Shown here: positions 17,941-57,462 of the stretch, piece by piece
Layout of the letters: each line of letters starts with the position of its first letter
Position numbering within the stretch: the first letter of the stretch is position 1
Assembly: GCA_011033025.1 (NCBI GenBank)
Contig: WFMF01000265.1
Location: forward strand, 124,001 to 188,000
Source of the DNA: Beroe forskalii
Lineage: Eukaryota > Ctenophora > Nuda > Beroida > Beroidae
Length of the DNA: 64,000 nucleotides
Direction of reading: 5' to 3'
Made by a program: the position numbers and the translations under genes
Notes under the pieces: generated by a model
The model's input: only the letters and a program-made list of their open reading frames with translations
Told to the model about the DNA's origin: nothing
Database searches by the model: none

Positions 17941-19320
17941 TTTAGAAGAGTGAAAAATTTATGTTTAATAATAATATAATATAATTGTTTTGTAATGAAT
18001 ACAACACATTTATGTCACTCTCATTCTTCATCATCATTCTTCATGTCATGCAACTCTACAAGGTACTCTTAGTTTTCTTTAAAACTGAGATACATTTTGA
18101 TGCACCATTCTATGGTGCTCTGATTGAAATAGTAATAATTTAAAAAGAAAGTCAGTTTTACCTATTTATACACAAATATAATAATTTAACAGTTATGAAT
18201 TAAAATTAAATAGCTGTCTATGAATTATGAAAAAATAGTCAATAAAAAAGGTCACTAGAATATACCTATGGAAAAAAACAAGATACGACAAAAATAAAGA
18301 CATTTGTCATCATTAATTGTGAGAAAAAGTATTTATTCCTTTCTTTTTAGCAATGAAAGGGTTTTCCAAAAGATACTTATTAAACTTTTCTTTGCGTATC
18401 AAATAATTTGAGAGAGATTTGATCAACAGATGTGTTTTAAATAGAAAATCTTTGAGCTAGTAGGGAAACAACTAAAGATTGTTTATGTAAATACGTTTTT
18501 AATTAAATTATTATAAATTATTTTTGCAGTATAAATTATTATTTTACAGTATGTACCAGTTTTGAAGGTATGCCTTTATGTTTTACCCTATTTATTTACA
18601 AAATTGCAGCAAAACAAAACAATATGAATATATATACGATTATATTTAGTCCTTAATGGGTGGCCCTATTAACAGATTTTTAATTTGGCTTGGTGCCTGC
18701 CCTCAGCACGACCCAGCAGCCTCTCACAATATAATATAAATCCAATAGAAAGGGAGAGAGAGTATATTTCAATAATTGTGCTGTAAAATCTTATAATTGA
18801 ATTGAATTGAATTGATTGCATATTTAAATGTGATTCTAGCCATTAGGGACCAGTAAAACATATCGTTCTTTCAAATGGAGTTGATTGATCGACCAATTCC
18901 ATTCAATCGACCAATGAACGTTATGGCCACCTCAGATTTACATGTAAGTGTGCTCATCAGTCAATAAGACCTCATCAATTGGGTAGCAAAAAGGATTGTA
19001 ATGCAAACCTTAGACAGTTTTTTCTAAGTATAAAGTATAAAGTATAAAACTTTTTGCTTTACAGCAACACGGTTCCACAACAAACTCTTCACAAAACTAC
19101 ATCGTTCACATCAGGATATTATCTGCTTTTTATCTATATTTCAAGTGTTAAGACTACTGCAAATCTAATAAAAGCTTATTCATGTTGTTCACAGTTTAGC
19201 AACTGCAACCCTGTTCTCCTTGCGCTGCTAAACACAGATACGTAACACGGATACGTAACAGTTAAGTTCTCCTTGCGCTGCTAAAAACGGATACGTAACT
19301 ATAACACGGATATAACGTAA
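17941..19320. other. AT-rich intergenic DNA with a split MITE
   Basis: Mostly featureless AT-rich DNA. Two fragments of the 233-bp MITE family are present: about 18416-18490 (GATGTGTTTTAAATAGAAAA and following) and 18839-18932 (ending AACGTTATGGCCACCT). They are separated by roughly 345 bp of foreign AT-rich sequence, and the left terminus is worn away. Confidence 0.65.
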
Positions 19321-19423
19321 CAGTTGCTAAACACGTATATCCCTGTCTGCGTTGCGCGGCGCGCTTCCTCAGGGAAGCGCCACGCGCGTACACACACCTA
19401 TGCGGGCTTAGGAAACGTAACAG
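19315..19423 (+). mobile_element. GC-rich hairpin MITE, copy A
   Basis: A 91-bp element (19324-19414) starting TTGCTAAACACGTATATCCC and ending GCGGGCTTAGGAA. It has imperfect terminal inverted repeats and a GC-rich core with self-complementary arms (GCGCGCTTCC/GGAAGCGC). It is flanked by the perfect 9-bp direct repeat ACGTAACAG at 19315-19323 and 19415-19423. Confidence 0.88.
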
Positions 19424-19625
19424 TACACTGTTTGCGCGGCGTCGCGCTCCCTCACAGGTTTAGATGTTCCCCTAACCAAGGGCGCTGCGCCGCGCACTCC
19501 GTGCGCGAAACCAGGGCGCTGGTTAGGGCAAACCTATGTGGGCTTAGAAACGCCTTGTGCGGCGCACTTAATCCTCGAGAAACACTGCGCGCGTTTGCAC
19601 ACCTATGTTGTCTTAAGAATGAGGT
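19424..19625. repeat. Diverged GC-rich cluster related to the hairpin MITE
   Basis: Contains CCCCTAACCAAGGGCGC, CAGGGCGCTGGTTAGGG and several GCGCGGCG words, also found at 31905-31935, plus a partial CCTATGTGGGCTTAGAAA end. Likely an older relative of the hairpin element. Another short frame here is not a credible gene. Confidence 0.55.
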
Positions 19626-20025
19626 AATAGTTGCCTAATGCTAACGGCAGGATCTAGATATTTGTTTAAGTTTCGAGTTGCTTGTCGATATCAGGCCCTC
19701 TGTATTCATTCCGTTCTGTATTTTAGGTAGTTTTAGTATAGGAGTAGTTTTATGATATTTACTTGTGTATATTTTGTAGCATAGCTTTCACATATAATAT
19801 TAATAAGTATGAACTTTTTTTTTAATTTATCTGATATTGGTTCCTTTTAGTTTATCTCCATTGGTGAATTTTTGCTCTTTGTAAATTTATGTTTCACACT
19901 GCTCGAGTATAGGCTCGAAGCATAATACAATAGTGGTGTTTAAATTACATGATGAAAGAATAAGTGTGGTGAGGAATTGTATCCAGTTGTGTTGTCATGT
20001 GACAAAAATGTTATCTTATCTTATC

Positions 20026-20264
20026 TTAGGCACCTGTAATGTTCGTCGGTCGATCGATTAGAATTGGTCAATCGATCAACTCCATTTGATCGACTGATGT
20101 GTTGTAAATAGAAAATCTTCCAGCTAGTAGGAAAACAACTAAATATTGATCATTTAAACACGATTCAAGTCATTAGGGACCAGTGAAACACATCATTCGT
20201 TTGAATGGAGTTGATCGATCGACCAATTCCAATCAATCAACCCACGAACGTTATGGGCGCCTTA
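20026..20264. mobile_element. Tourist/Harbinger-type MITE, second full copy
   Basis: 233 bp from 20029 to 20261, with ends GGCACCTGTAATGTTCGTCGG and CGAACGTTATGGGCGCC and inner GGTCGATCGA/TCGATCGACC repeats. A TTA lies on both sides (20026-20028 and 20262-20264). It ends 63 bp before the ATG of the coiled-coil gene, so it sits in that gene's leader or promoter. Confidence 0.87.
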
Positions 20265-20327
20265 TTATTAAGAAGATTATTGCCAAATAGAAAATAATTT
20301 AATTTATTTATCTACTAGTGAAGCAAG

Positions 20328-21371
20328 ATGACTTCTATACTTCAACAAATCCTGGACTCTGAGCAGGTTTTCAAGACTAGAGAAAGTGAGATAAACTGTA
20401 AGAGGGAAGAAATGACTAATTTAGCCAGTAGGACAGAAAGATTAATGGCTGATGTGGTACAGTGTAAAGAGCAAAATATACAGTCAAAGGCTAGAATAAA
20501 CAGAAAATCTGAAGAGCTTAAATATGTCTTGAATCGTTCATCAATCTATTCAGACCAAATTACTTGCCTTGAATCTCAGGTTATACTAATTAAGTCAGAA
20601 TATGATGAAAATCTTTCTAGTTACAAAGCATTTCGAGATGAATTTATCTCATACTTGAGTGGTGATGCCTTAGCTTTACATGATGAAAATGCAAAACTCA
20701 AAGTTTCTAACCCATTAATGTATGAACTGATATGCAGCAAAAGAGATGAATTAAATTCATTAAAGAGTGAGATTGACTGTAAACAGCTATCTCTTTTTGA
20801 TAAACAAAAAATGCATGCAGATTTATCTGCTCAACTATCTATGAAAACTGAATTGAATGGGCAAAAAAGAAATGACCTTGACATTATGAGGAAAGATATT
20901 GTTTCAGGGGAATTCTCTCTGTTTGAGCAGCAAAAAATTGAAGGGTTGAATCAAGATATTGCAGCCATTGAATCAGACTTATCTTCACTTAATTTCGAAA
21001 TTAGTAGTAAAAAGTCTTTCATTCAAAAATATCGACAGTCTAAGTATAATCACAATAAGAACTCTATCAACAGTAATAGCAATAATAGCCAAAACTTCCA
21101 ATACAACAATGTCTGCAATAATCAAAAAGTGCCGACCTGTTCTAGCTACTTTCCTATTCATTTCCCTATCCCTAATCCCCAGGACACCAAATCTTCAACA
21201 GATGAACGGAGTGTTGTGACAAAGCCTGCAAATGTCTGTATTGAAAAAACAGTGCCATGTTGTACTAAGGAAGAACCTTATGATGAATTCTTTGGAGATG
21301 ATGTCGACCTTTCAAATACTCAAGTCATTAAAGCCTGTGAAGAAGCACAGAATTATCACCAAAGACTCTAA
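20328..21371 (+). CDS. Coiled-coil protein, unknown
   Basis: A single intact frame of 347 residues. Residues about 1-250 have a strongly charged heptad pattern (EINCKREEMTNLASRTERLM, IEGLNQDIAAIESDLSSL) typical of a long coiled coil, with likely breaks near residues 110-130. An Asn/Ser-rich linker follows (about 250-275). The tail ends in an acidic EEPYDEFFGDDVDLSNTQ and a short helix KACEEAQNYHQRL. No family recognised. The length, the coiled coil and the acidic FGDD-type tail would fit a structural or cytoskeletal/chromosomal scaffold, but that is only inference. The coding part has no intron, and a MITE sits directly upstream. Confidence 0.75.
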   Translation: MTSILQQILDSEQVFKTRESEINCKREEMTNLASRTERLMADVVQCKEQNIQSKARINRKSEELKYVLNRSSIYSDQITCLESQVILIKSEYDENLSSYKAFRDEFISYLSGDALALHDENAKLKVSNPLMYELICSKRDELNSLKSEIDCKQLSLFDKQKMHADLSAQLSMKTELNGQKRNDLDIMRKDIVSGEFSLFEQQKIEGLNQDIAAIESDLSSLNFEISSKKSFIQKYRQSKYNHNKNSINSNSNNSQNFQYNNVCNNQKVPTCSSYFPIHFPIPNPQDTKSSTDERSVVTKPANVCIEKTVPCCTKEEPYDEFFGDDVDLSNTQVIKACEEAQNYHQRL

Positions 21372-22326
21372 TTTGCACCTATGGCTAGTGAGTACTGTGC
21401 TATACAGTTATAGTTATATGATAAGGTAGTTGTTAGTTATATCCACTCCAACATATTTGACACAATTGAGGAATTTTGAATCTGACATTCTATTAACACT
21501 GGCATATTTTGTATTATCACCCTCCTGTGGCTATAATTCGAGTGTGATAATTATCCATATATCACCCCTTTAAAAATCCTGTTTAATGGCATGCACAAAA
21601 TTTTTGTAAAGGAGCAATTAAAACCTGTGTTGAATCTAGAAAACTTAAGTCTACCCAATAAACAGTTATCACGAAATCATATGAGTACAAATAACAATCA
21701 GTTTGTACTTTTTTGTACTATTATTATTCCACTCATTGTTATTGTTTAAGTAAAGAGTTATGTTGATTAATTAATTTGTTTTCAATCTTTTAATTTTCGA
21801 TTTTAATGTTATAATTTGTTAACAGATATCTCTGTTGCTGAGGGTTTTTTTTAACCAATCCTTAAATTATTTTCATTTGAATTGGGAATTGTCATTCAAA
21901 TTTGTCCTGACCTTGGTAAGTCACTAAACTGCAGCTTCATTTTTTGTAAATAAGTTATTGATATTTAATGCCTATTTATTCTGTATTGATACTTTGATAG
22001 TTGTATTAATTATTAAACATTTGTTTGACTTACCACTTGTTTGACTATTATGAAATTTTCTGACCAGTACCTAATCAACATAATTTTCAGCATATTATTG
22101 AATATTAGATTATATACTTTTTGCTACAGTGATTTCCTAACTAGGTTGCCTTGTTAATAACAGTCTTCATGATCGACTGAGCATGACCAAAAAGTTCTTT
22201 TATACAAATTATTGGAAAAATTTGTTATATTGCAATTGTGTTACAAATTGTTATTCAATTAAATTAAATTAACTAACTGAGGCTAATGGACTTGATTTTG
22301 AAGGCTCTTCTTGCAGTGATGCAAAA
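21372..22326. other. Intergenic AT-rich DNA
   Basis: Contains the 3' flank of the coiled-coil gene and the 5' flank of the armadillo gene. No coding region or repeat family is supported. Confidence 0.6.
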
Positions 22327-24628
22327 ATGAAGTCAACTAGCCAACTATATCTCTTGGTATCAACTGGAGCCTTAGCTGTTGTGTTAGGGTTTGCTCTTCT
22401 GAAAAGATGGGGTGCAAGAGAAGATCAAAGTGCCAGTGAAAACTCAAAGAAAGTATCTAGGAAAAAACGTGAGTTACAAATTTACTTGTTTTGGCTCTAC
22501 TCTACCAATTTTACCTCCATGTATCTTTATGGCAGGAGTTTTGTAGAAGTAAATTTTGTTTAGTTTTATATTTTATAAAGACTTATACTCAATAAGGAAT
22601 CAATCTGCCCATTAATCTTCTCAAACTTGATATTTCATTGAATTTCGACTGAATACCTGAATGGATTATTTCAGAGAGGAAGTCAGGATCCCATAGAGGT
22701 TTTGTCAACTACAAAACCTTGTCTTCTTCTGTTAATACATTTAATCCACAACTAACTGTGGTTTTAAAATATTTGGTGGAGAAGAGTGCATTCAAAGAAC
22801 ACCAAGTGAGCAAATGTCTGTTTAATTGAACTTAATTTTACACTTCATTTTGATGTTCAAAGTTTTGAGAAAATCCTAGGCAGGGCCTAGGCCCTCCTCA
22901 TAATTTCCATGGGAGGGGGGGCGTGTAGTTCCATGGTGCCCTTAAATCCTTCATGTGGACCGTCTCCCATGTCATTTCAAAGTAATTTAATCTCAGATAC
23001 TCATGACAGAGTCAGGATGTTTGGATAATGTAACAGATGTCTTGCAAACGACCAGCAACCCTGACATAAAAATTCTTTGTCTAAAAGTACTCATGAATGT
23101 ATCAACGAATCCAGAATACTTGAATGATTCCATCCTGGTAAATTAATTGAAGTGTTTCCTTCATTATTATTAAATGATATTTTTAGAGCATATCAAATAG
23201 TTAATAGACATGCCGAAGATTTGGCCTCTGATGTTAAGTTTTTTTGACGCAAGGAATGTAGCAACCTGATACCAACCCTTCTGCCTGCCCATCACCCCTT
23301 ATCTCCTGGAAGCTTTGTCAGAAGACTGTGAAGACATTCTAGCAGACATCCTCAGTCTCTTGGTTAACATTTCATCCCACGATGGAGTGATGGAGCCATT
23401 TCAGGCAGAGGTGGATGTGGTAGCCCAAACACTCTCCAAATACACCCAGCAAATCAATGTAAGAGGAGGGATTTTAATTGTGAGAAAAAGTTATAATTTA
23501 TGGCTCACAATTTGTTAAATTTTCTTTAGCCTGTAAATAATTTGATACTGAGATACATACAAGGATTCCCAGGATAGATCAATGATATTATAAAAAGTAT
23601 TAGGATGTGTAGTGGGGACTGAGGAAAGCATGTAATTGATGAGAATGCAGTGTCTGAACTATAATGTAGTATATATAGAAATGTAGGGAAATGGACGTTT
23701 TGTATTCTTTTTGCATTGATCATAATGTTCCATTGAGTAGAAAAACTCAAGTCTCAATACTGAGAACACTGAGAAGGGCGTGGAGTTGAAATATCCAGTA
23801 CTCCATTATATAATACATTTCCAACTACCAGTATGAAATGCTGCAAACTTCCGTCGTGAATTCTGCAGTAGTCCCTCTTATAATGCGAAATTGTGAATAA
23901 TTGTGAATTTAAGATATCATATTCACGAAATGAGTAGATTTGGGAAAGCTTCTGATGAAATCATATATTGATCCTCCTCCTCCTCCTCCTTCTCTTCCTC
24001 TTCCCCCTCCTCCCTCGGAATGACATTCTATTATTTCAGTATCATTACGAAGTGGTTTTGAACTGCCTGAAGATCCTGATAAACTTCACCTGTTCAGATA
24101 TGGTGTTCGAACTCAGTTTGGTAAGTCGCAAATGATTTATTTGTGGAGGGGGTTGGTATCAGTACTATCTACATATCTATACTGGTCCAGATTTCTGCAT
24201 GTTTTACCTTTGATAGCCAAGAACAGATTTGTTCCCCCAGAATTTGTGTTTTCTTATTCTTGTTGAAACTTTTGATCTTCAGGTGTACATGTCATTGATA
24301 CATCTGCTATTTGGCTGTAAAAACAACGCTATCTTACTCCGAGTTCTTACCCTGCTGAGGAACATTCTAACATCTAAAACACTCAAACACGGTGAATATA
24401 CCTTGGTATTTCATTTTTAGAAGTGATCCTCTTTCATTTGTAAAGTGATCCCCTGAGAAGCAAAAATATTGGATGTATTCATGATATCCCCCCCATAACT
24501 CACCCCCTTCAGATTTAACGTACGATGAAGAGATTATGCGGGGTATAGCAACCGTCCTATCCACAAACTTTGACAAGGAATGCATTGAGATCGCTAACCA
24601 GATCTACCGCCTTGTATCCGACCATTGA
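22327..24628 (+). CDS. Armadillo-repeat protein, ARMC10/ARMCX-like
   Basis: Exons at 22327-22468, 22675-22805, 22997-23137, about 23254-23458, 24040-24120, 24283-24391 and 24513-24628, all GT-AG. Residues about 7-28 (LYLLVSTGALAVVLGFALL, then KRWG) form an N-terminal membrane anchor followed by a basic stretch, as in the ARMC10/ARMCX proteins anchored to mitochondria or ER. Helical armadillo repeats follow: ILCLKVLMNVSTNPE, EDILADILSLLVNIS, VVLNCLKILINFTC and AILLRVLTLLRNIL; the last is close to the ARMC10 pattern. It ends IYRLVSDH. Exon 4 contains a one-base phase break in a C-rich run near 23285-23295. The expected role is mitochondrial dynamics or transport, inferred from the family. Confidence 0.77.
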
Positions 24629-26575
24629 CCAATCAGATACAAGCTACCAATCTCATTCAGCTCAGATGTGCAGTCAGTATGGTATCTTTTAAAATTTTCA
24701 AGGTTATTAAGTGTGTTCACCGTGGCATAGTTTGCTTGGGTAAGTGTGGTGAATTGCTGAGGAATTGATGATGTTTTTCTTGCGGCGTACTTAAAATGAT
24801 GGGGTGTCATAATCAACTCCTTTACGCTTTATGACTACGTTATGTGTACTCGCGTGATACATTTTGGGGTTCCCTTTAAGTGAGATGATTAATGATTATC
24901 ATATTTAACTTTGTTTAAATCTTAACGTTTTTGTATTCAAATGACTCGGAGAATTTGATGATTTTTCCTCATCTGAACCCGTAACACTCATTTTATACCG
25001 TAGATTCTCATTTAAAATCTTGGCAGGGAAACTGCAAAACAAAGTACAATATTTAGAATATCATTCAATTTGCTCAGTTTGAGGGATGTTTCTTGTATAA
25101 TGCCGAAAACTATCTCCGCTTTCTTTCGCAAGTTTATTGGCCTCATTTCCATTGATACTTAATACTCAAATTAAAGCAAATTCTAGCAATGGTTTTCCGT
25201 TCATTTGCCCTGCTTTCATTCGTAACCATTTCAGTCTTCATGAAGAACCTAAGTTTTTGTACTACATGTCAATTAACAACTTTTTATTGATCTAGGTGAT
25301 GGGTTTTTATCAAGCGAATCGTATGTTATTTCAAGATGGTGTTAATGATTAGATTGATGACAGACAACTTTTTACGCTTTTACTTGGGAGCTTTTAACTT
25401 AATTTAATTTAATTTAACTAATTTATCTGTAAAGTTTGATATTTTTCCATTTATCTGTTGTGGTCTCACTATGAAAGCATGTGATAAGGTGACGTGACAT
25501 TGCTACGATGACTTGACATTGTGCTACGACATGTTATTTGACATAGACTATAGTACATGGTATTTGTGACAACACCCTGTATTACAGCGTTACACCCCTT
25601 GCTGTCTAGAACGCGCATTTTTGGCATCTTTTGAAAAAAAAATACGAATTTGGCCCTTACTACTTGGAATTTAAAGCATGCTATGGATCATTGTGATACG
25701 AAAATCACGTTCAAAACTTATCAAACTCGGCTTGGTCTCATTATCATTTGCTAGATTAGTTGCTCGTGCTACAATAGCATTCTAAATCAATACCATTACG
25801 TAATACGCTGATTAGCAATATCGATTGTCATAACTTTAGACTTTTCCCAGGGCTAAATTTCATCATGAGAAAGACTAAGGCATGATATTGGTTACCATAA
25901 GCCCATGAGTGAACAAAGATTATTCGAGAACCTCAAAATTTTCCTGGAATATCGCCGGATATTCCTTGAATTTCACGCAGAAAATGTCGTTAATTTCAAT
26001 TTAATACACTTGGCATTGTTAGGTACTGGAACTGTAACAGAAAGTTGGGCTACATTCCTTTGGAAATGCCGCATAACTGGCATTTTTAGCGGCAAGGCCG
26101 CAAGTCTGCCGAAACAGGTACATCTTTTTGTACTAGCATTTTTGTCCGAATTCATTTGACCACTCTGCGCGCATTTTGGCATTAGGAGAGCCACGCGCGA
26201 TGCTATTCCCTTTGTTTCGGATTCGAGTTGACAGCCTTGAATAGATCGAATGTTCATCAGGGGCTTCTCACGTAGATAACGGGAGGCTTCATGAACTGTA
26301 CCGGCGTAGTTTTATAGAAGGAAATACTGAGGCACATTTTCAATGCCTTAGGTGTACTAAACTAAGTCAAGGAAGTTCTTATTCATTTCGTGCCAAAATG
26401 AAATTCAAATTAAGAATCCCATTTAAATAAATAAATACTCTATATTTATGCATCGCTTTAAATCCAAATCAGATCTTAACTCAAAGACGCTATGCTTTAA
26501 AATAAAAATCCAGCCATCTAAAGCGACTCATAAAACTTCCACCCACCCATCTAAATTAACTAATTGAGTAGTGAC
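24629..26575. other. Intergenic DNA upstream of UBC9
   Basis: About 1.9 kb with no supported gene. The largest frame (25905-26159) has no recognisable domain and atypical composition. The UBC9 promoter and any non-coding first exon should lie here. Confidence 0.6.
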
Positions 26576-27574
26576 ATGACTGGTATTGCTTTGGGCAGAC
26601 TGCAAGAAGAAAGGAAGGCATGGCGCAAGGACCATCCCTTCGGATTCGTTGCAAAACCTGTGAAAAACCCTGATGGCACGCTCAATCTCATGAATTGGGA
26701 ATGCTCAATACCAGGCAAGAAGATTAATTGAGTAATCTCTGATTGATCAGCGTGATTTTGTCATATTATGTAAGAGATAATAATCGAAGTTTGAAATAGC
26801 CTACCCAGTTTCAAGTTTCGTTTTCAATCGTATGTTTCATTGCAACAAGTCCCTATTAAATACCCTCACCCCAAATCCCCCTCAGGCAAGAAGGGCACTA
26901 ATTGGGAGTGCGGCTCCTACAAAATGCGAATGATCTTCAAGGACGACTACCCCACCACCCCTCCTAAGTGCAAGTTCGAACCCCCTCTCTTTCACCCTAA
27001 CGTGTATCCTTCTGGGACCGTTTGCCTATCTCATCTTCATGATTTATGACTTCCCTTTTAAACCTTATATTGATTTCTTATTTTTCGATTAAGTTAAACT
27101 CAATGTTGTACGTAATATGGTAATATGAATCAATCAGTTGAATTAAAAGCCAACTTGTACGTCACTTTAAATCGAAGTTTTATCGTGCTCTACGTGATAA
27201 TGTTTCAGTTTGCTTATCACTACTCGACGAAGAAAAAGATTGGAGACCTGCAGTTACTATAAAACAGATTCTTCTTGGAATCCAGGTACGTACTCAACGA
27301 TTTCCTGATAATATTTAGCCGGAAACCACACAATAATTGGTTGCTTGGTCGCTGAACCAGCCCGCAAGGAATAATCGCTATATTTGCCTCGATTTAACGC
27401 TGTAGATTTCCGACACAAAACATTAAAAAACAAACCACTTTTCAGGACTTGTTAAACACGCCCAACATCCGGGACCCCGCCCAAGCCGAGGCCTACACCA
27501 TCTTCACGCAGAACAAATCGGAGTACGACAAGCGAGTCAAGCAACAGGCGGACAAATTCCAGCAACGCGGTTAA
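26576..27574 (+). CDS. UBE2I: SUMO-conjugating enzyme UBC9
   Basis: Four exons (26576-26714, 26886-27019, 27208-27285, 27446-27574) encode 159 residues, the usual length of this very conserved enzyme. UBC9 takes SUMO from the SAE1/SAE2 E1 as a thioester and passes it to lysines on target proteins, mainly nuclear. Visible hallmarks: N-terminal [23 protein letters not shown] motif in [13 protein letters not shown]; catalytic Cys93 in [12 protein letters not shown]; and a C-terminal helix ending [10 protein letters not shown]. Intron 1 is GC-AG (CCAG, GCAAGAAG). Intron 2 falls immediately before the codons for V92-C93 and has no canonical GT-AG placement that keeps the frame: the joint needs TT-AG or GT-CA. 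Both introns are bounded by 11-bp direct repeats. The family identity is beyond doubt. Confidence 0.97.
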
Positions 27575-29086
27575 GTCACGTGACACTTGTCACGTGACAC
27601 ACTCACCAGGTGACACACACCACTCAAAACATACCACGGACACTGACTATCGCAGAATCTCCCATGTCTCATCTCGTTATCTTCTTATCGTGGATTTCAC
27701 ACAAGGCTCAACGTGATTGGGAGAGGTACACGGATGTGGGACACGTGACAGCGCTCGTAACCAATAGGAAAGCAGTTGTCAATTCCTCTCGACCAATCGT
27801 AACATAGTATGAAAGTGGCCGTGTATCACTCGTGTACCGACTCTGATGATGTTGATCCGTGTGTGTTACCATGGGAACCTCACAAATTATAGTGACGGTT
27901 GGAGACTTGCCTATCATGCTGTATTTTAGGATTATAAAATACCCAAATACGTATTGGGCATGATTTAGGGAGGCCTCACTCGTCCACTTTATTTGGGTGT
28001 GAATTGTTATTTTGATGTTTCGAGCTTGGGTTATATCTGTAGTCAAATATATAACCAATCCGACTCTGATTGGTCCTTATCGCCATTCTTGAACCTAAAA
28101 GTTTTCACGGTTGATAGTTGTAAGCCTTAAAATCCATGCAAACGAATCCATGCAAGCGTTTGCAGCGGATTCTAGTTTTAAATGTCAGACAGGTATTAAA
28201 AAGCTGAGTGTTTTTGGGCTTCTATCGCTTTTAAAAATATTTGCTATGAATAAAGTTTCAAAATTTTAATATATTAGTTGAATTTAATTTTAAGTTGGAA
28301 CAAAAACTGATTCAAACGATTGTGAATCTGTTGGAATTTTCTAATATGACAGCACAAGTTTGTGAGCAAACTCATTTTACCGACAGAAATATACATTCAA
28401 GTCCTTCGTTGGTTAATCGTGAATTGCTAAAATATCAGACAAATGTATCTTAGTATTGATGCAGCTGCCCATCTTTTTTATTTAGTACGTTAGGTTTATA
28501 TCTCGAATCATCGCACGAAGTTGATATATGATAGGAAAAATTAACCATTCAATGCTGACATAATAAGGTCGTGTAAAATCGATAGGCGGTTGGGAATATT
28601 TTAATTGCAGATGTCTCCAGATCACTTGATTGACGCGGGCTTGATAAAAACGCGCAATTTTGCTGTACTTTTCCATTTTCGATAAAAATTAAAATCTATA
28701 TCGAAAGTTGACACGCGAACAGTAAATTTGCACGTCTTCATCGAGCCCTCCGTCAATAGAGAGATCTGCACACGTGTGCTAACATGGCTTAGAATGGTTA
28801 ATTGGTGGCTGGGAACCGCCTACTTTTGCTGCACGGCATAACTTAGAGCCCATGATTTAATTGTCTAATTTTATTCAATTATAACTGCGTTTATTTGACT
28901 CAAATTGATTTCTTTTGTCGAATTTTATGCTTTGCAATTTGCATTTTCATGGAACTTTTCAGTCACTAAACTGCGATGGATACACTTTTTTGATACTATA
29001 CTTGATATAAATAATTGATATTAGACATTCATATTACAACTAAAATTTTTTCATCGAAACTTCTGAAAACAGATTGAAAATGCAAA
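27575..29086. other. Intergenic DNA between UBC9 and the GPCR gene
   Basis: Convergent 3' flanks. Just after the UBC9 stop lie two CACGTGAC palindromes (GTCACGTGACAC, 27575-27600). A single AGGCGGTT end of the short inverted-repeat family appears near 28582. No gene supported. Confidence 0.6.
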
Positions 29087-30604
29087 TCAAACGTCCTCGC
29101 TAACAAGCCTAGGTTCTTGGGAGGCAGGTTGATAGTTGATCGTATTTTCTGCCGTTGAAATCACTGAATCTTCTCTTATCGCTTGGAGAGGGGGTGCAAC
29201 ATTCGGTGGGTTCCTTGCTATCGCGGGCAGTGGTTGTGCAGCATTTCCCACCGATGGTCTGCTGGAGACGGACGGTCTTCCTGATACGGACGGTAGCCTC
29301 CTGACTGTTGCTATGGAAGGTGACCTGCTAGCAATGGACGGTGATCTGCTTGCAATGGACGCTCTCCCTGCAATAGACGGTCTGGCACCAGAAACTGTTG
29401 TCATTTCCGTGTCATAATCACTCGTCCCCACTGTTCCACGGCGTGCTATGGTGAGTCTCCTGACGACATGTTTCCTGTAAGACCCTATTCTTATGAAGAG
29501 GATCAGAGGGTTAACTGCAGCATTGACGAAATAGGGGAGGTATCCGATAGCGTAGGTCACCTTCAGACTGATTTCATCGTATGGGTTGATGCATGCATGG
29601 TGGATAGGGAAGTAGAGTGAACAGGAAGCACAGATTATGAAGAAGAGACTGATCAGGACGATGGTAGTAGTGACTGCTTTCATCTCCTTTTTCTTGTCCT
29701 TTCTCACTGAGTCACATTCTTCAGAGAGCGATGCTGAGGGGAATATCAGGACTTTCAGCTGAATCGCAGTAGCCACCAGTGTCACAAAGGCACATAAGAA
29801 GAAGGGGAAAGCAGAGTACATCATCTCCATGGCACAAGCAGATATCTTCATATAGATCAGAACACCGAATATCATTTCCAGCCATATAACCCGGCCAGGG
29901 ATATAGAAGTAGTAGCTGATCAGAGATTCGTGGATCTTGAAGTTGTCTTTGTGTTTCTTCAGAGTCCCAAGGTGGAAGTAGAGAAGGGTTCCTATGTCCG
30001 CTGAGAAGACAATCATCCAGAACAGGGTACACAATCCCAACGCTACAATAACGAATCCTTTCCGTATTTCTTTGAAGGGAAACACCACGTTGAAGGTTCT
30101 CAGGACAGCAATAATCATGCTCACAAAAGCAGAAACTTTGAACGCCACGACTGATATGAAGTACGCTGGGATGAGCAGCCAGTAAACAGAATATGTGAGT
30201 TCTTCCCTTACCACATGGATAGTAATGAAGATCAAACTGTGGAGGAGAGCACTGAAACCGGTGCAGAAATCACTCAAGCTCAGGATAAAGTACATGAAGG
30301 AGATGATGCTGCTCCTGATTTTCCTAAAGTGAAACAGCATGACTCCCATATTTAGCACCATGGCAACGACTGCCAGAATCAGGGTCGTGAAGATTATTAC
30401 ATAGCTGAATTCGGTCCCTAGGAAATAAGTTGCGGCTCGGTCAGGTTCTAGTGTTGTTGGGCGAGGGCCAGCCGTTGTGAAAGCATTATTGAAGGTTCCG
30501 AAGTCATAAGTCCAATTCCCTGTGAAACTCTCAGTTGCATCCCAGTCGAAACCACTTAGATCCGGGAGACTGAACCAGGAATCGAAATCCCAATCCCAGG
30601 CCAT
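29087..30604 (-). CDS. Class A (rhodopsin-like) GPCR, intronless
   Basis: A 505-residue single-exon seven-transmembrane receptor. The extracellular N-terminus (about 70 residues) is acidic, Trp/Phe/Asp-rich, and has the N-glycosylation site NWT. TM1 is near residues 72-95; TM2 has the family motif FILSLSDFCTG; TM3 ends VLRTFNVVFPF, so the usual DRY is replaced by LRT. TM7 carries NAAVNPLILFI, a variant of NPxxY. The third loop is Lys-rich (RKDKKKEMKAV). The cytoplasmic tail holds an in-frame repeat of Ser/Arg units (SIASRSP and RPSVS types), possible kinase and arrestin sites. The ligand is unknown. Intronless, rapidly diverging receptors of this kind are common in invertebrates. The loss of DRY may alter G-protein coupling. 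Confidence 0.9.
   Translation of the reverse strand: MAWDWDFDSWFSLPDLSGFDWDATESFTGNWTYDFGTFNNAFTTAGPRPTTLEPDRAATYFLGTEFSYVIIFTTLILAVVAMVLNMGVMLFHFRKIRSSIISFMYFILSLSDFCTGFSALLHSLIFITIHVVREELTYSVYWLLIPAYFISVVAFKVSAFVSMIIAVLRTFNVVFPFKEIRKGFVIVALGLCTLFWMIVFSADIGTLLYFHLGTLKKHKDNFKIHESLISYYFYIPGRVIWLEMIFGVLIYMKISACAMEMMYSAFPFFLCAFVTLVATAIQLKVLIFPSASLSEECDSVRKDKKKEMKAVTTTIVLISLFFIICASCSLYFPIHHACINPYDEISLKVTYAIGYLPYFVNAAVNPLILFIRIGSYRKHVVRRLTIARRGTVGTSDYDTEMTTVSGARPSIAGRASIASRSPSIASRSPSIATVRRLPSVSGRPSVSSRPSVGNAAQPLPAIARNPPNVAPPLQAIREDSVISTAENTINYQPASQEPRLVSEDV
29250..29395 (-). repeat. Coding repeat in the GPCR tail
   Basis: Short imperfect units encoding SIASRSP, SVSGRP and SVSSRP repeat head to tail within the receptor's C-terminal coding region. 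Confidence 0.8.
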
Positions 30605-30691
30605 TACGATGGGTGAGACATTCTGTAACGGTTGGAAAATTAAATCAATTATCAGGGCCTAGAGCCAGTCCTAGGATCAACATTGGGGCAT

Positions 30692-30806
30692 ATTAAGCGG
30701 TTGCTAAACACGTATATCCCTGTGTGGCTCGCGCGGCGCGCTTCCCCAGCACAGGGGAAGCGCGCGGCGCGTACACACACCTATGCGGGCTTAGGAAATT
30801 AAGCGG
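30692..30806 (+). mobile_element. GC-rich hairpin MITE, copy B
   Basis: A 97-bp element (30701-30797) with a perfect 9-bp flanking duplication ATTAAGCGG at 30692-30700 and 30798-30806. Its core folds back: GCGCGGCGCGCTTCCCC pairs with GGGGAAGCGCGCGGCGCG across a 6-base loop. Confidence 0.92.
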
Positions 30807-31516
30807 TTACATGTCCAAATGGGACCGTATACCGCAACTTACATGGTCGGGGCGACAGCCGAGACTTTGTAAAGTTGGATAAATATAATGGACGAGGCGT
30901 GCCAAGTTCATTATTGTAGGTATATGGCCACAGCTGAGAACATGGAACCAGATTATATCCCGAATGGAAACAGCTGAACGGAACCGACTATTATATTATC
31001 CGAGCAAACAACAGTATTTCTCTCACTCATCGGGTCTGACCCTCGTCCGGGTTCAACGCTTAAGTAGATTTTTGAGTGCTCCTTTATAAAATCAAATTTC
31101 ATTCTAAGCTTTTTTTCCACTAGGAAATTTGGAGGGTCGTGTTGCTGAGGGGGTTACATCCTACTAAACGTGAACCTAAGAAGTCGTGAGTGAGAGTCTG
31201 CAAATTTTAGTAATGCATCCCTACTTCACTGCTTCCAAAATGTCGATAACTCCCTCAAAATTTTAATTAAAAGATAACGAAAATGCATTCAGTTCGTCGT
31301 TCGAAGAATATTTAAAAAAAAACTTCTAAATTTCGACCTTCACAGTTCATACGATCGAAAGAGTTAAACGCAAGGTACGTACGTGAGAAACACTAAAACG
31401 CGCGCAATGAACTCTGTGCGCGCGCAATTCAAGATGCAATGCACGTGCACCCTTCGATTAATATATCAAAGGAATAGTGCGCGGCGCGAAGCAAAGAGAG
31501 AATCGAATTTAATTTA
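30807..31516. other. Intergenic DNA, upstream flank of the intronless GPCR
   Basis: No gene is supported. GCGCGC words near 31398-31425 and 31480-31490 hint at eroded members of the hairpin family. Confidence 0.55.
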
Positions 31517-31595
31517 CCCATATGTTTCCTAAGCCCGCATAGGTGTGTGCCCGCGCGAGCCACACAGGGATATACGTGTTTAGCAACCCATATGT
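31517..31595 (-). mobile_element. GC-rich hairpin MITE, short copy C (reverse)
   Basis: A 61-bp version (31526-31586) in reverse orientation: starts TTCCTAAGCCCGCATAGG, ends CGTGTTTAGCAA, and lacks most of the palindromic core. Flanked by perfect 9-bp duplications CCCATATGT at 31517-31525 and 31587-31595. Confidence 0.9.
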
Positions 31596-31599
31596 CAGC

Positions 31600-31936
31600 G
31601 CGCCAGCTCAGCAGCGGGTGAAGTGCCACTTGCTTAGCCCGCATAGAGGTGTGCGGGCTTAGGAATTGCAACACTAACAGGGGTATACGTGTTTAGCAAG
31701 TGAACTAAGTAAGCATAAGGCGGAATGTTAATTAATTGAATTCATTCGAGATTCGCTTCCGAATGCTGAACATGAACAGTTGAACACGCGTTTGCGTCGC
31801 GTTGAGCGCTTCCAGTTCCTCAGGGAAGCGCGCGGGGACAAACCTATGCTATGCTATGCCGTCTCAGAAACGCTTCCTCAGAAGCGCGGCGCAACAGGGA
31901 TATACGTTCCCCTAACCAGGGCGCTGGTTAGGGCCG
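31600..31936. repeat. Eroded hairpin-MITE copies
   Basis: A truncated copy around 31617-31700 has both kinds of end (GCTTAGCCCGCATAG and GTATACGTGTTTAGCAA). A second block at 31790-31936 has GCGCTTCC/GGAAGCGC arms and CCCCTAACCAGGGCGCTGG. Ends and duplications are not clean. Confidence 0.6.
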
Positions 31937-32045
31937 GGCAAGGATTTGCTAAACACGTATATCCCTGTCTGCGTTGCGCGGCGCGCTTCCCCAGGGAAGC
32001 GCGCGGCGCGTACACACACCTATGCGGGCTTAGGAAGGCAAGGAT
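31937..32045 (+). mobile_element. GC-rich hairpin MITE, copy D
   Basis: A 91-bp element (31946-32036), almost identical to copies A and B, flanked by the perfect 9-bp duplication GGCAAGGAT at 31937-31945 and 32037-32045. Confidence 0.92.
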
Positions 32046-50206: not shown

Positions 50207-50289
50207 ACTCACATAAGCTATGTGGGAGGTTGTGGTAATTCTTGCTGGTTATTTAAAGGTTTAAGTGGGCATAGATCCGTTTGCCACTT
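50207..50289 (-). promoter_or_regulatory. DDX20 upstream region
   Basis: Only about 83 bp separate the DDX20 start codon from the giant inverted repeat, so the proximal promoter must lie here or within that repeat. A GTGAGT precedes the ATG, which could also be chance. No TATA box is seen. Confidence 0.3.
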
Positions 50290-51763
50290 TGTCCAGGCGC
50301 CAGTCTAATGCAGGTCTAGCGCCGGTTTAATGCTGGTCTAACGCCAGTCTAGTGCAGGTCTAATGCAGGTTTGGCGCCGGTTTTGTGCAGGTTTAGCGCC
50401 GGTTTAGCGCTGGGCCAGCGCCAGTCTAATGCAGGTCCTGTGCCACTCTAATGCAGGTCTAGCGCCGGTTTGGTGCAGCTCCAGCGCCAGTTGAGCGCGG
50501 GTACAGCGCTGGTGCAATGCAGGTCTAGCGCCGGTTTGATGCAGGTCTTGTGCCAGTCTAGTGCCACTCTAATGCAGGTCTAGCGCCGGTTTGGTGCAGG
50601 TCCAGCGCTGGTTTAGCGCGGGTGCAGCGCTGGTCCAATGCACCTCGGATGCGATCTCAATATTACTTATGCATTTTATACAGATTTGACGCCGATTAAA
50701 TTATGCAGGTTTGACGTCTTTTCATGACTGTTTGGCGCTGTTTTAATGCAGGTGCAACGCCATTCCAATGCGGGTTTGGCGCCGGTTTCATGCAGGTTTA
50801 GCATGTTCAATTCTATGCCCCATGACTCTTCCTAATAATAATAAATAATGGTTACCGGTGGTAACTAACGTACTTCATCATTGTTACCGGTGGTAACTAA
50901 CATACGTTACCATGGTTACCGATGGTAACTTACGTACATAACCATGTTTATCTGTGGTAACTGACGAACGTTACCATGGTTACCGGTGGTTACTAACATA
51001 CGTTACCATGGTTACCGACCTGGTAACTAACGTGGGTTACCATGGTTACCTATGGTAGCTAACGTACGTTACCATGGTTACCGGTGGTAACTTAGGTGGG
51101 TTACCATGGTTACCGATGGTAACTAACGTGGGTTATAATGGTAAAGTGGTAAACGGTGGTCACTGGTCACTAACGTAGTAACGTATGTTACTATGGTTAC
51201 CGATGGGAGCTAACGGACGTTACCATGGTTACCGGTGGTCCCTAACAGACGTTACCATGGCTAACGATGGTAACTAACCTGCATTGGAATGGCGTTGCAC
51301 CTGCATTAAAACAGCGCCAAACATGCATGAAACGACGTCAAACCTGCATAATTTAATCGGCGCCAAATCTGTATAAAATGCATTTTAGTAATATTGAGAT
51401 AGCATCCGAGGTGCATTGGACCAGCGCTGCACCCGCGCTAAACCAGCGCTGGACCTGCACCAAACCGGCGCTAGACCTGCATTAGAGTGGCACTAGACTG
51501 GCACAAGACCTGCATTAAACCGGCGCTAGACCTGCATTGCACCAGCGCTGTACCTGCGCTCAACCGGCGCTGGACCTGCACCAAACCGGCGCTAGACCTG
51601 CATTAGAGTGGCACAGGACCTGCATTAGACTGGCGCTGGCCCGGCGCTAAACCGGCGCTAAACCTGCACAAAACCGGCGCCAAACCTGCATTAGACCTGC
51701 ACTAGACTGGCGTTAGACCTGCATTAAACTGGCGCTAGACCTGCATTAGACTGGCGCCTGGAC
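50290..51763. repeat. 1.47-kb foldback of minisatellite DNA
   Basis: Left arm 50290-50775 and right arm 51276-51763 are near-perfect reverse complements (about 486 bp). The arms are built of irregular units of TAATGCAGGTCTAGCGCCGG type. The 500-bp spacer is a tandem array of about 32-bp units (GTTACCATGGTTACCGGTGG and TAACTAACGTAC), each itself full of GGTTACC/GGTAACC inversions. No coding capacity. Confidence 0.93.
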
Positions 51764-53731
51764 ACTGTGGGTTTAAGTGGGTTATATTTGCGAGTCATTT
51801 AGTGGGTGACCCGCAAGAATGACCCACTGTGGGTTATTCTTGCGGGCTATTCGAATGAGTTATTGTAGTGGGTTATTTGGTGGTAATATGGGTTTAAAAT
51901 GAGTTTGGAGTTGAGAAAATGAACTCAAAATTATTTAAAGACAGTTTATTTAGTAGATTATTTAGTATCAAGGAAATAGTTCTAATAAATTTCTTGGCAC
52001 AATCACCTCATAGAATAAATAATCACAAGGGAGAATTACTTGTTGTCTTTTGAGCGGGCTCTGGTGTAATTAGTTTAATATACTTGGTCTGTTCCATAAA
52101 TGATATCACAATTCAATAAATTACAGGAATGGGCTTCAATGAATAGAATAAATCACATCAGGATGGAATAAAGGCGCCACACTGTCGAAGCACCTCTTCG
52201 CAATGAGTCTGAACTTCTTTATTAACGCCCGTTAACGCAATTTCATTAAAGTTCCTCATTAAACGCTCTAGGTCAGTTTCTTACTCCTTATTTTGCATTC
52301 ATCCATTTTCTCGAAGTCTGGTGAATAAAAAGCTCTCAAACAAGCTCAAACAAGGACTTTGGGACTTTTTTATCGTAATTTGTTTCACAGGGCGCACGTA
52401 GCTCTGTATTATTTGGATATTGTGTTTTTAAAGTTTAACAACGACATACAGCAGCAGGCTCCAACTGTTCTAGAATCAAAACTCCGTTTACTGGTAGTGA
52501 GATGAGGCCTACAACATTGTACAAAATTTTCCGTAGATTAATAACGTAGTTCACACGAAAATCCTCTAACCTCAACCAGTTCTCCCGAATTAAAATTATT
52601 TATGGAACTTCCTAAGTATTTTGACTTGACAGTAGTGTCACAACTACTCAAAGTTTCGAGTTGTTATGAGAGAAATCAAAATTATTTTGGGAACTATATT
52701 AACACACAAATAGGTCAGTAGGTTACATAATAGCAGTATTTGGTGAATTACTTCATCAAATTTTTGATCTTAGCATCTAACCTAACCATTGTGATAAATA
52801 TTTACAAAATATTTGGAATAGTCACAGAGCTATTAATTGTAAACAATAAAGCGATATGTTTGGTGATCTTCACTTAGATCACACCACGAGATTAAAATTA
52901 GACTTTGAGCATGCCGTCATATCCTATACATAGTAGCAGGAAATGAAGTCATTTCCTCCAAATCAACCATTCCATTTGATCCATACAAAGCAATGATTCG
53001 AGTCAATAAAATGGTTTTATTTACACCCCGAAGAACGGCAGAATGGTGTCACTACAAGGTACAAAATATAGCATAATGAGGGCATAGATCATGTGATCGT
53101 TATCTTCGAGAATAGGTCTATTATTAAGGAGTAATTACATCGATGATTATACGCCACGTGCAAACGATTAGCAACATAGAGTGACGTCATTATCTTGATT
53201 TTTAACTATAAATTGATGATGTCGGCTGACTATTTCTCTACTCGTGGGCTATTCATTAGAGAATTCCTCATCGGATAGGTCAGCATGCTCGGGTACATGA
53301 ATATTGCATTTAGCATCATGGTGCGACCAGTCATAATGGTAGTAGTTACTTGTAGGAACCCGTGCTTTACGCTTTTATTAAGAACGTTGTCTGTTTATTT
53401 CTTTACTTGGACATGTTCGTTATAATGTTATGGTTGATTTTGAATTGAAAAGTCTCAAATTAACTTCTTGACAGGTTATCTGTTTAATTGATTCATACTC
53501 AATGCTCGTTTTTGAAAGTTTCATGGCATTTGGCAACGCCTTAATTATTTTTTATGGTGAAGTTAGATTTAAACTGAAATTTCAGTCAGGTGTTCAGCAA
53601 ATATGTCAGCAGATAAATATATCAAAAGCGGTATGGTAAATGAATCGATGGTAGACAGAGAAGATATTATAATTGTTAAATATATCGGATTTGGTGACTA
53701 TAATGAAACTGTATTGCTAAAAACTGCACAG
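51764..53731. other. Intergenic DNA between DDX20 and the second GPCR
   Basis: About 2 kb of AT-rich DNA. GTGGGTTAT words recur near 51770-51890. No gene is supported; the first exon and promoter of the GPCR are expected here. Confidence 0.55.
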
Positions 53732-56508
53732 AAAATGGGTGGTTGAGGGAGGGGGATATTTTACTCGGCACACTATATCTCCTTATCTCAATAATCGGGA
53801 TTTGTAAAAACCTCCACGTTTTCTACAAAATATTCGAATTGAGGCATGAAAGCCACTCAACGGTGAGTTTAAGTACGTTTCAAATATTCCAATTAAATAA
53901 TAACTTTCAAATAATCATAGTAGTTTTGTGGTGTCAATTTTGAAAAATATATGACTAGTTTAATATCAAAGACAGTTTAAACTCATCAATTGCTTGTTAC
54001 TTATATAGGTCGGTTTGAATCCTACATAGCTTAATATCCTTCTTCTCAGTCAAAGATAAGCTTCTTCATACTTGTTGGAAATCTTTCAATCAGCGACATA
54101 ATTATTCTAACGCTTCCCCTTTGGATATCAATGTTTGGACTATTTAATGAGAGAGATATATTGCAGATTCAAGGGGATCCTTTAACAGGTACTGAAGAAT
54201 AACTATCTAAATAAACTTAATTTTAGATTAATTATTGTCCACCAAAGATGAGTTGCATCAGGTAATCCTTTTATTTCACAAACATTTGATTTTCAGCATG
54301 AGGTACAGGTAGTGTTGTCACATTTCATATTATCCCTGATTATTCTTCAGCAGTGACTGTGTTCCTTCATAGCTGTGCTGCAAGGAGTTCCATCCTATTT
54401 GTGATGCTAATAGCCATATTCAGAGCTATATCAATCAGATCACCCTTGCAGTCTAATAGGGTGAGCCAAAATCTTATTATATCATGATTTGATGGGTTTT
54501 TATTCAAAGTTCTAACATACCTCTGTCTACCAGTAGTGTTATGCGCTACTCTACATAACAGTAACTTATTGTTGTGCAGAGTAGCATGAGCAATTTGTCA
54601 GTATCTAAGTTATTAAGGACTCCTTTTTGATTGATTGGCACACATATGCATAACTTTAACAAGCTTCATATTGACATATCACACCATATCATAAAAATTT
54701 ACCAACCCATCATTAATTTTTCAGGTTACTTCAACAATACGAGTCATTGTTCTCAGCAGCCTTTCTTGGATTCTTGTGATTGGACTAACTATCTATACTA
54801 TGACTAGTGAAGAGTATAAAACCATATTTGTAAAAGCCACAGCACTGTGCTACTCAGTAAGTACTCTTATCTACCTCTTGACATTTGTTCCTAGAGTTTA
54901 AAACACTCACCAATCCCTCATCAGCTGATGATTTCATCATTAACTATTTTTTAATCAGGTCAATGAAGAGAAAGATACTTGGTCAATAACTGGACAATTA
55001 CTAGCTCTGTATCTAATCCCTGGATTCATGACATTATTGGCTCTAGCCTATCTGCTATATTTCCTACTAAAAATGTATAAGATGAAATTAAGAAGATACC
55101 AGTCAAATTCTTCATCTTATAGGTAATAATTTTAATTTACCGAACAATAATACTTTGTAATTCTGTTGCCTGATCAATTCATGATCATTATGATTTCTTA
55201 AATCACCATAGAAAGCTATATGGTTAGCTTTTCAGCATTGGATTAGCTCTACCTTATTCCCAAAACTATTGGATTCTATGTAACTAGAATCAGTACAACC
55301 TACCAATAGGCCACAAAAAGAATGGAAATCTCTGGCCATGACAATCCAGCTCATAGTAGCCTTTGTAGTATCATACACACCATGGTATATCAATGGAATT
55401 TCCAAACTTATGATGGAGGCTGAAAAATCAAGTAAGGATAATTCAGCAGCACACTGGAACTGTTTCAAAAGGTATTACTTGCTTTCTTGAGTATAATTGT
55501 GCAATGCTGAATATTCAATGAATCTGCAGAAATGAAGCCCTTATTTACAGATTCAAATTTTATTTCAAATATAAGAATTATAATTGATAAATTATGCTAA
55601 GGAATTTTCAATATTACTGAAAAATTTCAGGTTATATTGGGAAAATCTGACCTTAGGTGGATTCTTGTTTTTGAGTTCAGCAGTCAATCCATTTATCTAT
55701 GGTAAAACACTATTGCATCATCAACAAGGCCATGAAGACAGTCAAATTGCCATGAGGACTATGAATGCATTCTCAGTCATCAAGGTTAGTAAGGAATTAT
55801 TATTAGGAGTATGAAACTATTATTATTATACCACTCCAGTGCAGATAACCACAGTGCAATATAAGGGCATATTGCACTCTCAGATATCTGATATTTGCAC
55901 GAGTGCAATATCAAAATATCTAAACATGCACTGAGTGCAATATCAAAATATCTAAATATGCAAAAGTGCAATATCTCCATACAAAGGTAGTTTTCCTTAC
56001 TGATAAGGAATTACTATATTATATTATTATGTGCACTGGTTTATATTGTGACCATTTTGTGTCATGGTATAATATGCTAATCTAACTCCCCTAGTGGTAT
56101 TGTTGCACTAATTGCACTCGGCTTCGCCTCATGAAATGAGTCCTCATCAAACTCGGCTTCGACCTTGTGTGATTAGTGCTGTAATTAGCACTCGGCAATG
56201 CCTTGTGCAATAACAGCAACAATACCACTATGGGTAGTTAGATTAGCGTATATAATCTAGCTTTTAAAATTGCTAGTTGATAAAATTACTAGTTGATCAA
56301 ATTGCTAGAGTATGACTCCAAAAGAGAATGACTACTCGTGTTAGTATTATCTCTACTATATCTACACACAAAATTTCAGCAAAGTATCTTCAAGACCAAA
56401 GAGCAAACAAGTGAAAGTGTTTATCGAAGCAATGCCCCCTTAAATCCTGCCACAGCAAGCCCAAGCAATAGAGATGTGAATATGATAAAAAGAATCCATA
56501 AAAAGTAG
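53732..56508 (+). CDS. Class A GPCR, about eight exons
   Basis: Exons: 53732-53862, 54050-54188, 54351-54460, 54725-54856, 54959-55122, 55288-55471, 55631-55784 and 56380-56508, with GT-AG introns. TM1 LYLLISIIGICKNLHVF; TM2 GNLSISDIIILTLPLWI; TM3 ends MLIAIFRAISI, so DRY is replaced by FRA; TM4 in exon 4; TM5 IPGFMTLLALAYLLYFLL; TM6 FVVSYTPWYING; TM7 LSSAVNPFIYG, the NPxxY motif. A short Ser/Asn-rich tail ends RIHKK. No initiator ATG is visible in exon 1: the frame opens from a TGA just upstream, so a preceding exon is expected. The exon 5/6 joint is one base out of phase as assembled. A peptide- or amine-type receptor is possible, but the ligand is unknown. Confidence 0.88.
55835..55985 (+). 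repeat. GTGCAATATC tandem repeat in a GPCR intron
   Basis: About four units of AGTGCAATATCAAAATATCTAA type, partly inverted at the left end (GTGCAATATAAGGGCATATT). Confidence 0.85.
56072..56252. mobile_element. About 180-bp inverted-repeat element in the last GPCR intron
   Basis: Ends TATGCTAATCTAACTCCCCT and, inverted, AGGGTAGTTAGATTAGCGTA-like sequence, both continuing to TAGTGGTATTGTTGC. The interior has repeated CACTCGGC words. TATAAT lies near both ends, but the target duplication is unclear. Confidence 0.7.
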
Positions 56509-57375
56509 CTGAAATGGAATGAACTGATTTCTTTCACTGACTTGAAATCATTTTGAATGGAGGGAAACTAATTCCTGGATTAAATTATCGACCTTTTATC
56601 TTCTATCTTTTCATATAAATTTTTGATGTTAAAAATGAATAACTGTAAATACTGTGTGTAATACATACCATATATTGTTTGTTTAAGGTTTAACTTTTTC
56701 ATTTCGTACTTTCTATATGCCAGGTGTCTCATCAAATTGAAAATATTATAATGAAAATATCATTAAGAAAATACAAAAATTCGAATCATAATTCATAAAA
56801 TCTTTTTTCAAGAAAACTACCCTGATGGAAATATTACAGCGAAAGTATTATAGTGGAAATATCATAATGATATCAAATTAGGAATTCAGGCCACAAATAA
56901 TGCAATTAATGGCTTAATTGCAGTTTGCTAAGCTTATCTGACCACTGACCAGAACCAGAGAACCACAATTTTGTTCATATATCTCATTGCTCTTACAAAT
57001 TGTATAAATATGGATAAATCATTAAATCAAGTCAAAAACCAATAAAATATTGTAACAATGCAACAAAGTGTTGTCTGACGTCGTCAAACCTGACGTTGTT
57101 TAGCGATCTGCGCGCGAAACTTATAGGGTCCTGATCAGAACTAAGCAACGTCAGTGGTCATGTCAAACTCATTATTTCAAATGCGAGTCCTGGAACGCGC
57201 GCGCCGCGCTTTGTGCGAATGAGGCTAGGGGATCAGACAACGCCTGAAAAACTTGACAGGCACCTGGCACAAGCGTTTTTCGCTGCTGAGATAAAAATAT
57301 GATATGACTCATTCCACCTGAGAATAGACGCGATGCTCAATTAAGTAATTCAGAATGCTTTATGATGTCACGTCC
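56509..57375. other. Intergenic DNA
   Basis: 3' flank of the GPCR gene. A GC-rich patch with GCGCGCGCCGCGC lies near 57197-57210. No gene supported. Confidence 0.55.
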
Positions 57376-57462
57376 AATGACTTATTCCTAAGCCCACATA
57401 GGTGTGGGAAGCGCGCCGCGCGAGCCACACAGGGATATACGTGTTTAGCTCAGAATGAGTTA
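57376..57462 (-). mobile_element. GC-rich hairpin MITE, copy E (reverse)
   Basis: About 69 bp starting TTCCTAAGCCCACATAGG and reaching GGGATATACGTGTTTAGC. Flanks AATGACTTA (57376-57384) and AATGAGTTA (57454-57462) agree in eight of nine bases, an aged 9-bp duplication. Confidence 0.78.

Follow-up and report, generated by a model that had tools for sequence, protein, structure and literature searches.

A recently mobile family of short GC-rich hairpin elements with nine-base target duplications in the genome of Beroe forskalii

The genome of the ctenophore Beroe forskalii carries a high-copy MITE family whose copies share short asymmetric ends, are flanked by 9-bp target duplications, have inserted into one another, and include identical copies at different sites. 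It is almost certainly a non-autonomous family, moved in trans into 9-bp staggered cuts, with a hairpin that is variable and dispensable. As far as can be told, it is a new family of a well-known kind of element, and a Mutator-like superfamily is slightly favoured for it. The family was characterized starting from a 64,000-bp stretch of DNA (hereafter the window), which corresponds to positions 124001-188000 of contig C320 (WFMF01000265.1) in an assembly of 216 Mb and 1134 contigs.

Results

MITE copies in the window

An initial annotation of the window had listed five copies, four of them with perfect and mutually different 9-bp flanking repeats and the fifth with a match in 8 of 9 positions, and had described a GC-rich hairpin core that is missing from the 61-bp copy. 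All five copies were found where they had been placed, their repeats are as claimed, and the core and its loss were both seen. A sixth copy, absent from that list, is rearranged.

19324..19414, + strand: 91-bp MITE copy; flanks ACGTAACAG at 19315-19323 and 19415-19423; duplication 9/9
30701..30797, + strand: 97-bp MITE copy with a longer hairpin loop; flanks ATTAAGCGG; duplication 9/9
31526..31586, - strand: 61-bp MITE copy without the hairpin core; duplication ACATATGGG in element orientation (CCCATATGT on the plus strand), 9/9
31630..31699, - strand: rearranged partial MITE copy of 70 bp; no target duplication (3/9)
31946..32036, + strand: 91-bp MITE copy; flanks GGCAAGGAT; duplication 9/9; 100% match on contig C291
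57385..57453, - strand: decayed 69-bp MITE copy with altered 5' terminus; flanks AATGACTTA / AATGAGTTA (plus strand), 8/9

In the decayed copy the outermost 5' bases have changed, and the plus-strand end reads GTTTAGCTCAG instead of GTTTAGCAA. With up to two mismatches, the motif TTGCTAAACACG has 15 matches in the window, as compared to 5.25 +/- 2.56 in shuffled sequences, none of which (0/100) reached 15.

An open reading frame on the minus strand (29087-30604, 505 aa; no Pfam match) starts 96 bp from the 97-bp copy, which is upstream of it and may thus be part of its promoter or 5' leader. A Pfam scan of eight open reading frames of the window gave matches for two, one condensin-like (Cnd1, HEAT) and the other of the C2H2 zinc-finger type, in keeping with eukaryotic DNA. 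The window had no Rfam matches at gathering thresholds, and a search for six units of the TTAGG repeat also gave none, a result that is uninformative as to lineage.

Nine-base target duplications

In order to examine flanking sequences genome-wide, 40 copies were scored among 1747 first-look candidates, and the 30 best, one of which is the window copy at 31946, were cut out by element sequence alone. Perfect 9-bp duplications flank all 30. A larger set of 76 paired ends was compiled from the window and the cut-out loci (L002-L054); where several 3' ends were possible, the one giving the best duplication was taken, which introduces a mild bias. Within this set the duplication is perfect at 9 bp in 55 cases and matches at 8/9 in six; the remaining 15, at 7/9 or less, include rearranged copies and weak or partial ends matched with the 3' end of a neighbour. 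Exact duplications of other lengths amount to two at 8 bp and none at 6, 7, 10 or 11 bp. When flanks were swapped between copies, 8/9 or better was reached in 1.4% of pairs, versus 61/76 of the real pairs. The consistency of the 9-bp repeats, for which the initial annotation had proposed a genome-wide check, is thus borne out both in the top-scoring copies and in the paired ends.

The initial annotation had also considered that the flanking repeats could belong to a larger duplicated block, in which case the copies would have been dispersed with that block, or as a satellite, and not by transposition. Clustering of the copies would fit such a scheme (41 additional copies in 87 kb around 29 copies, loci chosen as best matches, versus a mean of 19 per Mb), as would the 9-mer common to two copies in L010 and one in L019, which may be duplicates of a single locus. 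However, the 53 unique perfect cases carry 52 different 9-mers, exact repeats do not extend to 10 or 11 bp, and nested copies have repeats of their own. We consequently give dispersal by a block or satellite next to no credence.

The nested copies are internal empty sites, and argue against a larger duplicated block as the origin of the repeats. In three loci (L020, L023 and L029) both the inner and the outer duplication are 9/9, and subtraction of the inner copy plus one repeat yields a family member. The same subtraction gives a family member in L026, where the inner duplication is 8/9 and the outer one 9/9; L015 (inner 8/9, outer 6/9) is less clear. The outer member of the nested pairs has a best identity to another copy of 0.79-0.96.

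Of 13 centres compared, the middle of the 9 bp gives the most symmetric base composition at the insertion sites (r 0.72, versus 0.56 for the next best), as expected from the symmetry of an integration complex. A weak mirrored preference is present, with G favoured and T avoided at position 1, and C favoured and A rare at position 9. Outside the 9 bp, it includes G at -3 and C at 13, as well as a pyrimidine at -2 and a purine at 12.

Ends and hairpin of the element

Full copies are mostly 91 bp long, and the simple copies with 8 or 9 of 9 matching duplication positions span 59-134 bp, which is too short to code for a transposase. The ends are inverted repeats, imperfect and always asymmetric in the same way (5' TTGCTAAACACGTATA; 3', read inward, TTCCTAAGCCCGCATA); a hand count over the copies finds agreement in 10 of their first 14 bases. 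They enclose a GC-rich palindrome whose loop and length vary. The family thus has the features of a MITE, being short, non-coding and high-copy, with terminal inverted repeats (TIRs), albeit imperfect, and a duplication of fixed length.

When folded as single-stranded DNA, the window copies of 61, 91 and 97 bp have their ends paired in the lowest-energy structure. For the 97-bp copy this end-to-end fold has a z-score of -6.8; values for the 91-bp copies are -2.0 and -2.8, and that of the 61-bp copy (-1.1) is unremarkable. The decayed copy at 57385-57453 folds with a z-score of -2.9, without end-to-end pairing. These results indicate that full copies form a hairpin, which is nevertheless not retained in all copies.

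Ten distinct copies of 70 bp or less occur among those kept for a duplication of 8 or 9 of 9, and eight of these have perfect duplications: five, each at a separate place, are 68 bp long, two are 61 bp and one is 59 bp. The 68-bp form, with its five different sites, appears to have spread on its own, in support of the dispensability of the core. The suggestion in the initial annotation that only the ends are needed fits these short copies, and lengths of 59-68 bp place a small upper bound on what the transposase requires.

Two further features of the ends were recorded. At C228:9846-9873 two 5' ends stand head to head and form a 28-base perfect palindrome, TTGCTAAACACGTATACGTGTTTAGCAA. In addition, many of the ends listed in the search for an autonomous partner (97 + 26 places) have a few extra bases beside a local repeat, situated some 16 bp inward from the terminus in the GTATA/GCATA region. 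An excision footprint recurring at one fixed stagger was considered and is not supported, the arrangement GTATA-NN-GTATATCCC occurring only six times, five of them with the same two bases.

Copy number, age and distribution

The exact 23-base 5' end occurs 2067 times in the 216 Mb (reversed control, 0), and 4193 times genome-wide when up to three mismatches are allowed (reversed control, 1). No match to the exact end was found in viral contigs or in GTDB genomes. Twenty 91-bp copies at 20 loci are fully identical, a figure that is not a rate, the sample having been picked for best matches. Identity over 91 bp at so many loci points to recent movement of some copies, and the proposal that the family has transposed, in part recently, is supported accordingly.

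Within 1.5 kb of the 29 best-match copies (L002-L030), additional copies are approximately 24 times denser than the genome average. The 1-kb flanks of copies, which themselves contain additional copies, have a GC content of 47%, versus 40% in arbitrary stretches (20 of 10 kb each). Copies with a duplication number two in these 200 kb of arbitrary stretches, one at 9/9 and one at 8/9, and L039 contains both.

Other short families near the MITE copies

A second GC-rich hairpin family, with ends TTGCCCTAACCAGG / TTCCCCTAACCAGG, is present in the window at 19467-19531 and at 31907, and in loci L008, L021 and L024. Its 14-base end occurs 1104 times genome-wide (control, 0). In the window and cut-out loci, five exact pairs were found at 9 bp, one at 8 bp, and none at 7, 10 or 11 bp; this is weak evidence for duplication, since two of the five 9-bp repeats are entirely G/C and a third is so except for one A. 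No matching 9-mers flank the copy at 19467-19531.

Two other groups are weaker leads. Ends like TTGYCAGACGTT define a third short family (L005:1679-1756, L030:1653-1722, L018:1211-1284 and L021:818-890), for which four pairs have 8-bp repeats and one, in L028, a 9-bp repeat. A possible fourth family with ends TYGTAGGATGTT (L025:285-399, L025:1733-1849 and L053) includes two pairs, whose repeats are 9 bp long in one and 8 bp in the other.

Search for an autonomous partner

Two transposase profiles were employed to scan the genome: MULE (PF10551), with 46 matches, five of them in open frames of more than 500 aa, and Merlin (PF12762), with 35 matches, several of which fall in open frames close to 300 aa in length. 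The coordinates of these matches were compared by script with 323 listed ends that have non-MITE interiors (100 of 251, 100 of 245, 97 of 97 and 26 of 26). Two more sets, the first 100 exact 5' ends (contigs C1-C99) and the first 100 from the second family, were checked against these coordinates by eye only.

Among the 323 listed ends, no 5'-3' pair within 15 kb spans a transposase match. Four ends lie within 10 kb of one: two inward-facing 5' ends on C160, 167 bp apart and 3 kb from a MULE match; a 5' end on C647, 7 kb from a MULE match; and an end on C122, which is 8.3 kb from a Merlin match and points away from it. Eight correctly oriented 5'-3' pairs were found within 15 kb among the listed ends, but all have starts less than 60 bp apart and are therefore short elements and not autonomous ones.

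Candidates for longer elements were also rejected. Of four stretches cut out for this purpose, L051 and L052 resemble each other on either side of the end, which places the end inside another repeat, and L053 and L054 contain mixtures of other short repeats. In L024, a candidate of 314 bp flanked by a 9/9 repeat is composite.

Discussion

The copies described here are best explained by the following route of insertion. A transposase supplied in trans would recognise the short, imperfect and asymmetric ends (5' TTGCTAAACACGTATATCCCTGT; 3', read inward, TTCCTAAGCCCGCATAGGTGTGT), the element would be inserted into a 9-bp staggered cut, and gap filling by the host would generate the 9-bp direct repeat, movement being of the cut-and-paste or a related type.

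The length of the duplication narrows the choice of enzyme. hAT elements generate 8-bp duplications. P elements generate 7-8 bp, as given in the part of the iMITEdb description cited here (PMC5199201). Neither length fits, with two of 76 pairs exact at 8 bp versus 55 at 9 bp. The initial annotation had pointed to a Mutator-like transposase, and this holds as far as the 9-bp duplication is concerned; the listed ends gave no MULE or Merlin match between them. Since the duplication length is the sole link, the Mutator label is best taken as a lead.

We consider the chances about even that a MULE transposase of this genome is the mobilising enzyme. Duplications of about 9 bp are common in MULEs and are seen here, and MULE open frames of more than 500 aa are available in the genome. 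Tm1 of root-knot nematodes, a Mutator/Foldback element, also generates mostly 9-bp duplications and has many MITE-like copies according to the excerpt cited (PMC3169594). On the other hand, a MULE match is found less than 10 kb away for three of the 323 listed ends, and none of the listed 5'-3' pairs spans one. TIRs of more than 100 bp, which are typical of MULEs if not universal, are absent, whole full copies being about 91 bp; short TIRs and rare 8-bp duplications also differ from the mosquito MULEs as described in the excerpt of PMC5225508.

An enzyme of another or undescribed lineage, which would also move the second hairpin family (TTGCCCTAACCAGG / TTCCCCTAACCAGG), is possible, though we hold it doubtful. 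Each family combines a TTGC end with a TTCC end, the next bases being TAA or CCTAA, and this common TTGC/TTCC pairing suggests a single type of enzyme for the two; the second family, with its 1104 ends, also shows 9-bp duplications in five exact pairs, although these are weak. However, the likeness between the ends is short and could be convergent, the duplications of the second family come from exact pairs only, among 50 end matches, its window copy at 19467-19531 has no such repeat, and neither family is linked to a transposase. Going further, one could envisage an undescribed transposase lineage with strict 9-bp spacing and TTGC/TTCC ends that moved at least two unrelated GC-rich hairpin families and was lost, or is too diverged for the MULE and Merlin models; we deem this quite improbable.

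A Merlin (IS1595-like) transposase seems an unlikely source of mobility. Merlin elements generate 8-9 bp duplications, in agreement with the 9 bp of the MITE, and the 35 profile matches include several open frames of about 300 aa. The ends of Merlin elements begin with GG, in contrast to the TT of the MITE ends, and just one end among the 323 listed is less than 10 kb from a Merlin match, and it points away.

The Beroe genome contributes a MITE family that is very short, present in many copies and recently active. By virtue of its 9-bp rule and its nested copies, it is a clean case in which insertions can be dated and the enzyme sought, and GC-rich hairpins of this genome can be mobile DNA rather than structured RNA. 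No earlier report of the family was found in the literature searched, and TTGCTAAACACG appears in none of the papers covered. At least one of five short words taken from the ends occurs in 7 papers; those on insects are a primer paper of the ant Tapinoma indicum, with CGGGCTTAGGAA in the excerpt cited (PMC8300939), and its corrigendum, and this 12-base match is possibly due to chance. The family is of the same kind as the insect elements in iMITEdb, whose excerpted description counts 6012 MITE families from 98 insect genomes, 481 of them without a superfamily, and it may already be listed there (PMC5199201).

Comparison with known systems

Assignment to Mutator on such grounds has a precedent in Tetris of Drosophila virilis, which has 8-10 bp duplications and, in the excerpt cited, was placed there by its duplications and by foldback analogy, its transposase not having been found (PMC4079207). 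The MULEs of Aedes aegypti (Muta1 and others), as described in the portion cited, resemble the present family in having 8-9 bp duplications and many short derivatives in one genome (PMC5225508). They differ in that 12 of 14 families have TIRs of more than 100 bp, 8 and 9 bp are mixed and subterminal tandem repeats are common, whereas the MITE has short, imperfect and asymmetric TIRs and a duplication of almost strictly 9 bp (PMC5225508). Tm1, in the excerpt available, likewise has duplications that are mostly of 9 bp and a predominance of MITE-like copies, and it too is asymmetric at its outermost ends, where two different motifs of 7 bp occur, CGGTTAA and CCTACCC (PMC3169594). Unlike the MITE, it has composite TIRs that include a tandem motif of about 14 bp, a transposase-coding copy and other outer motifs (PMC3169594).
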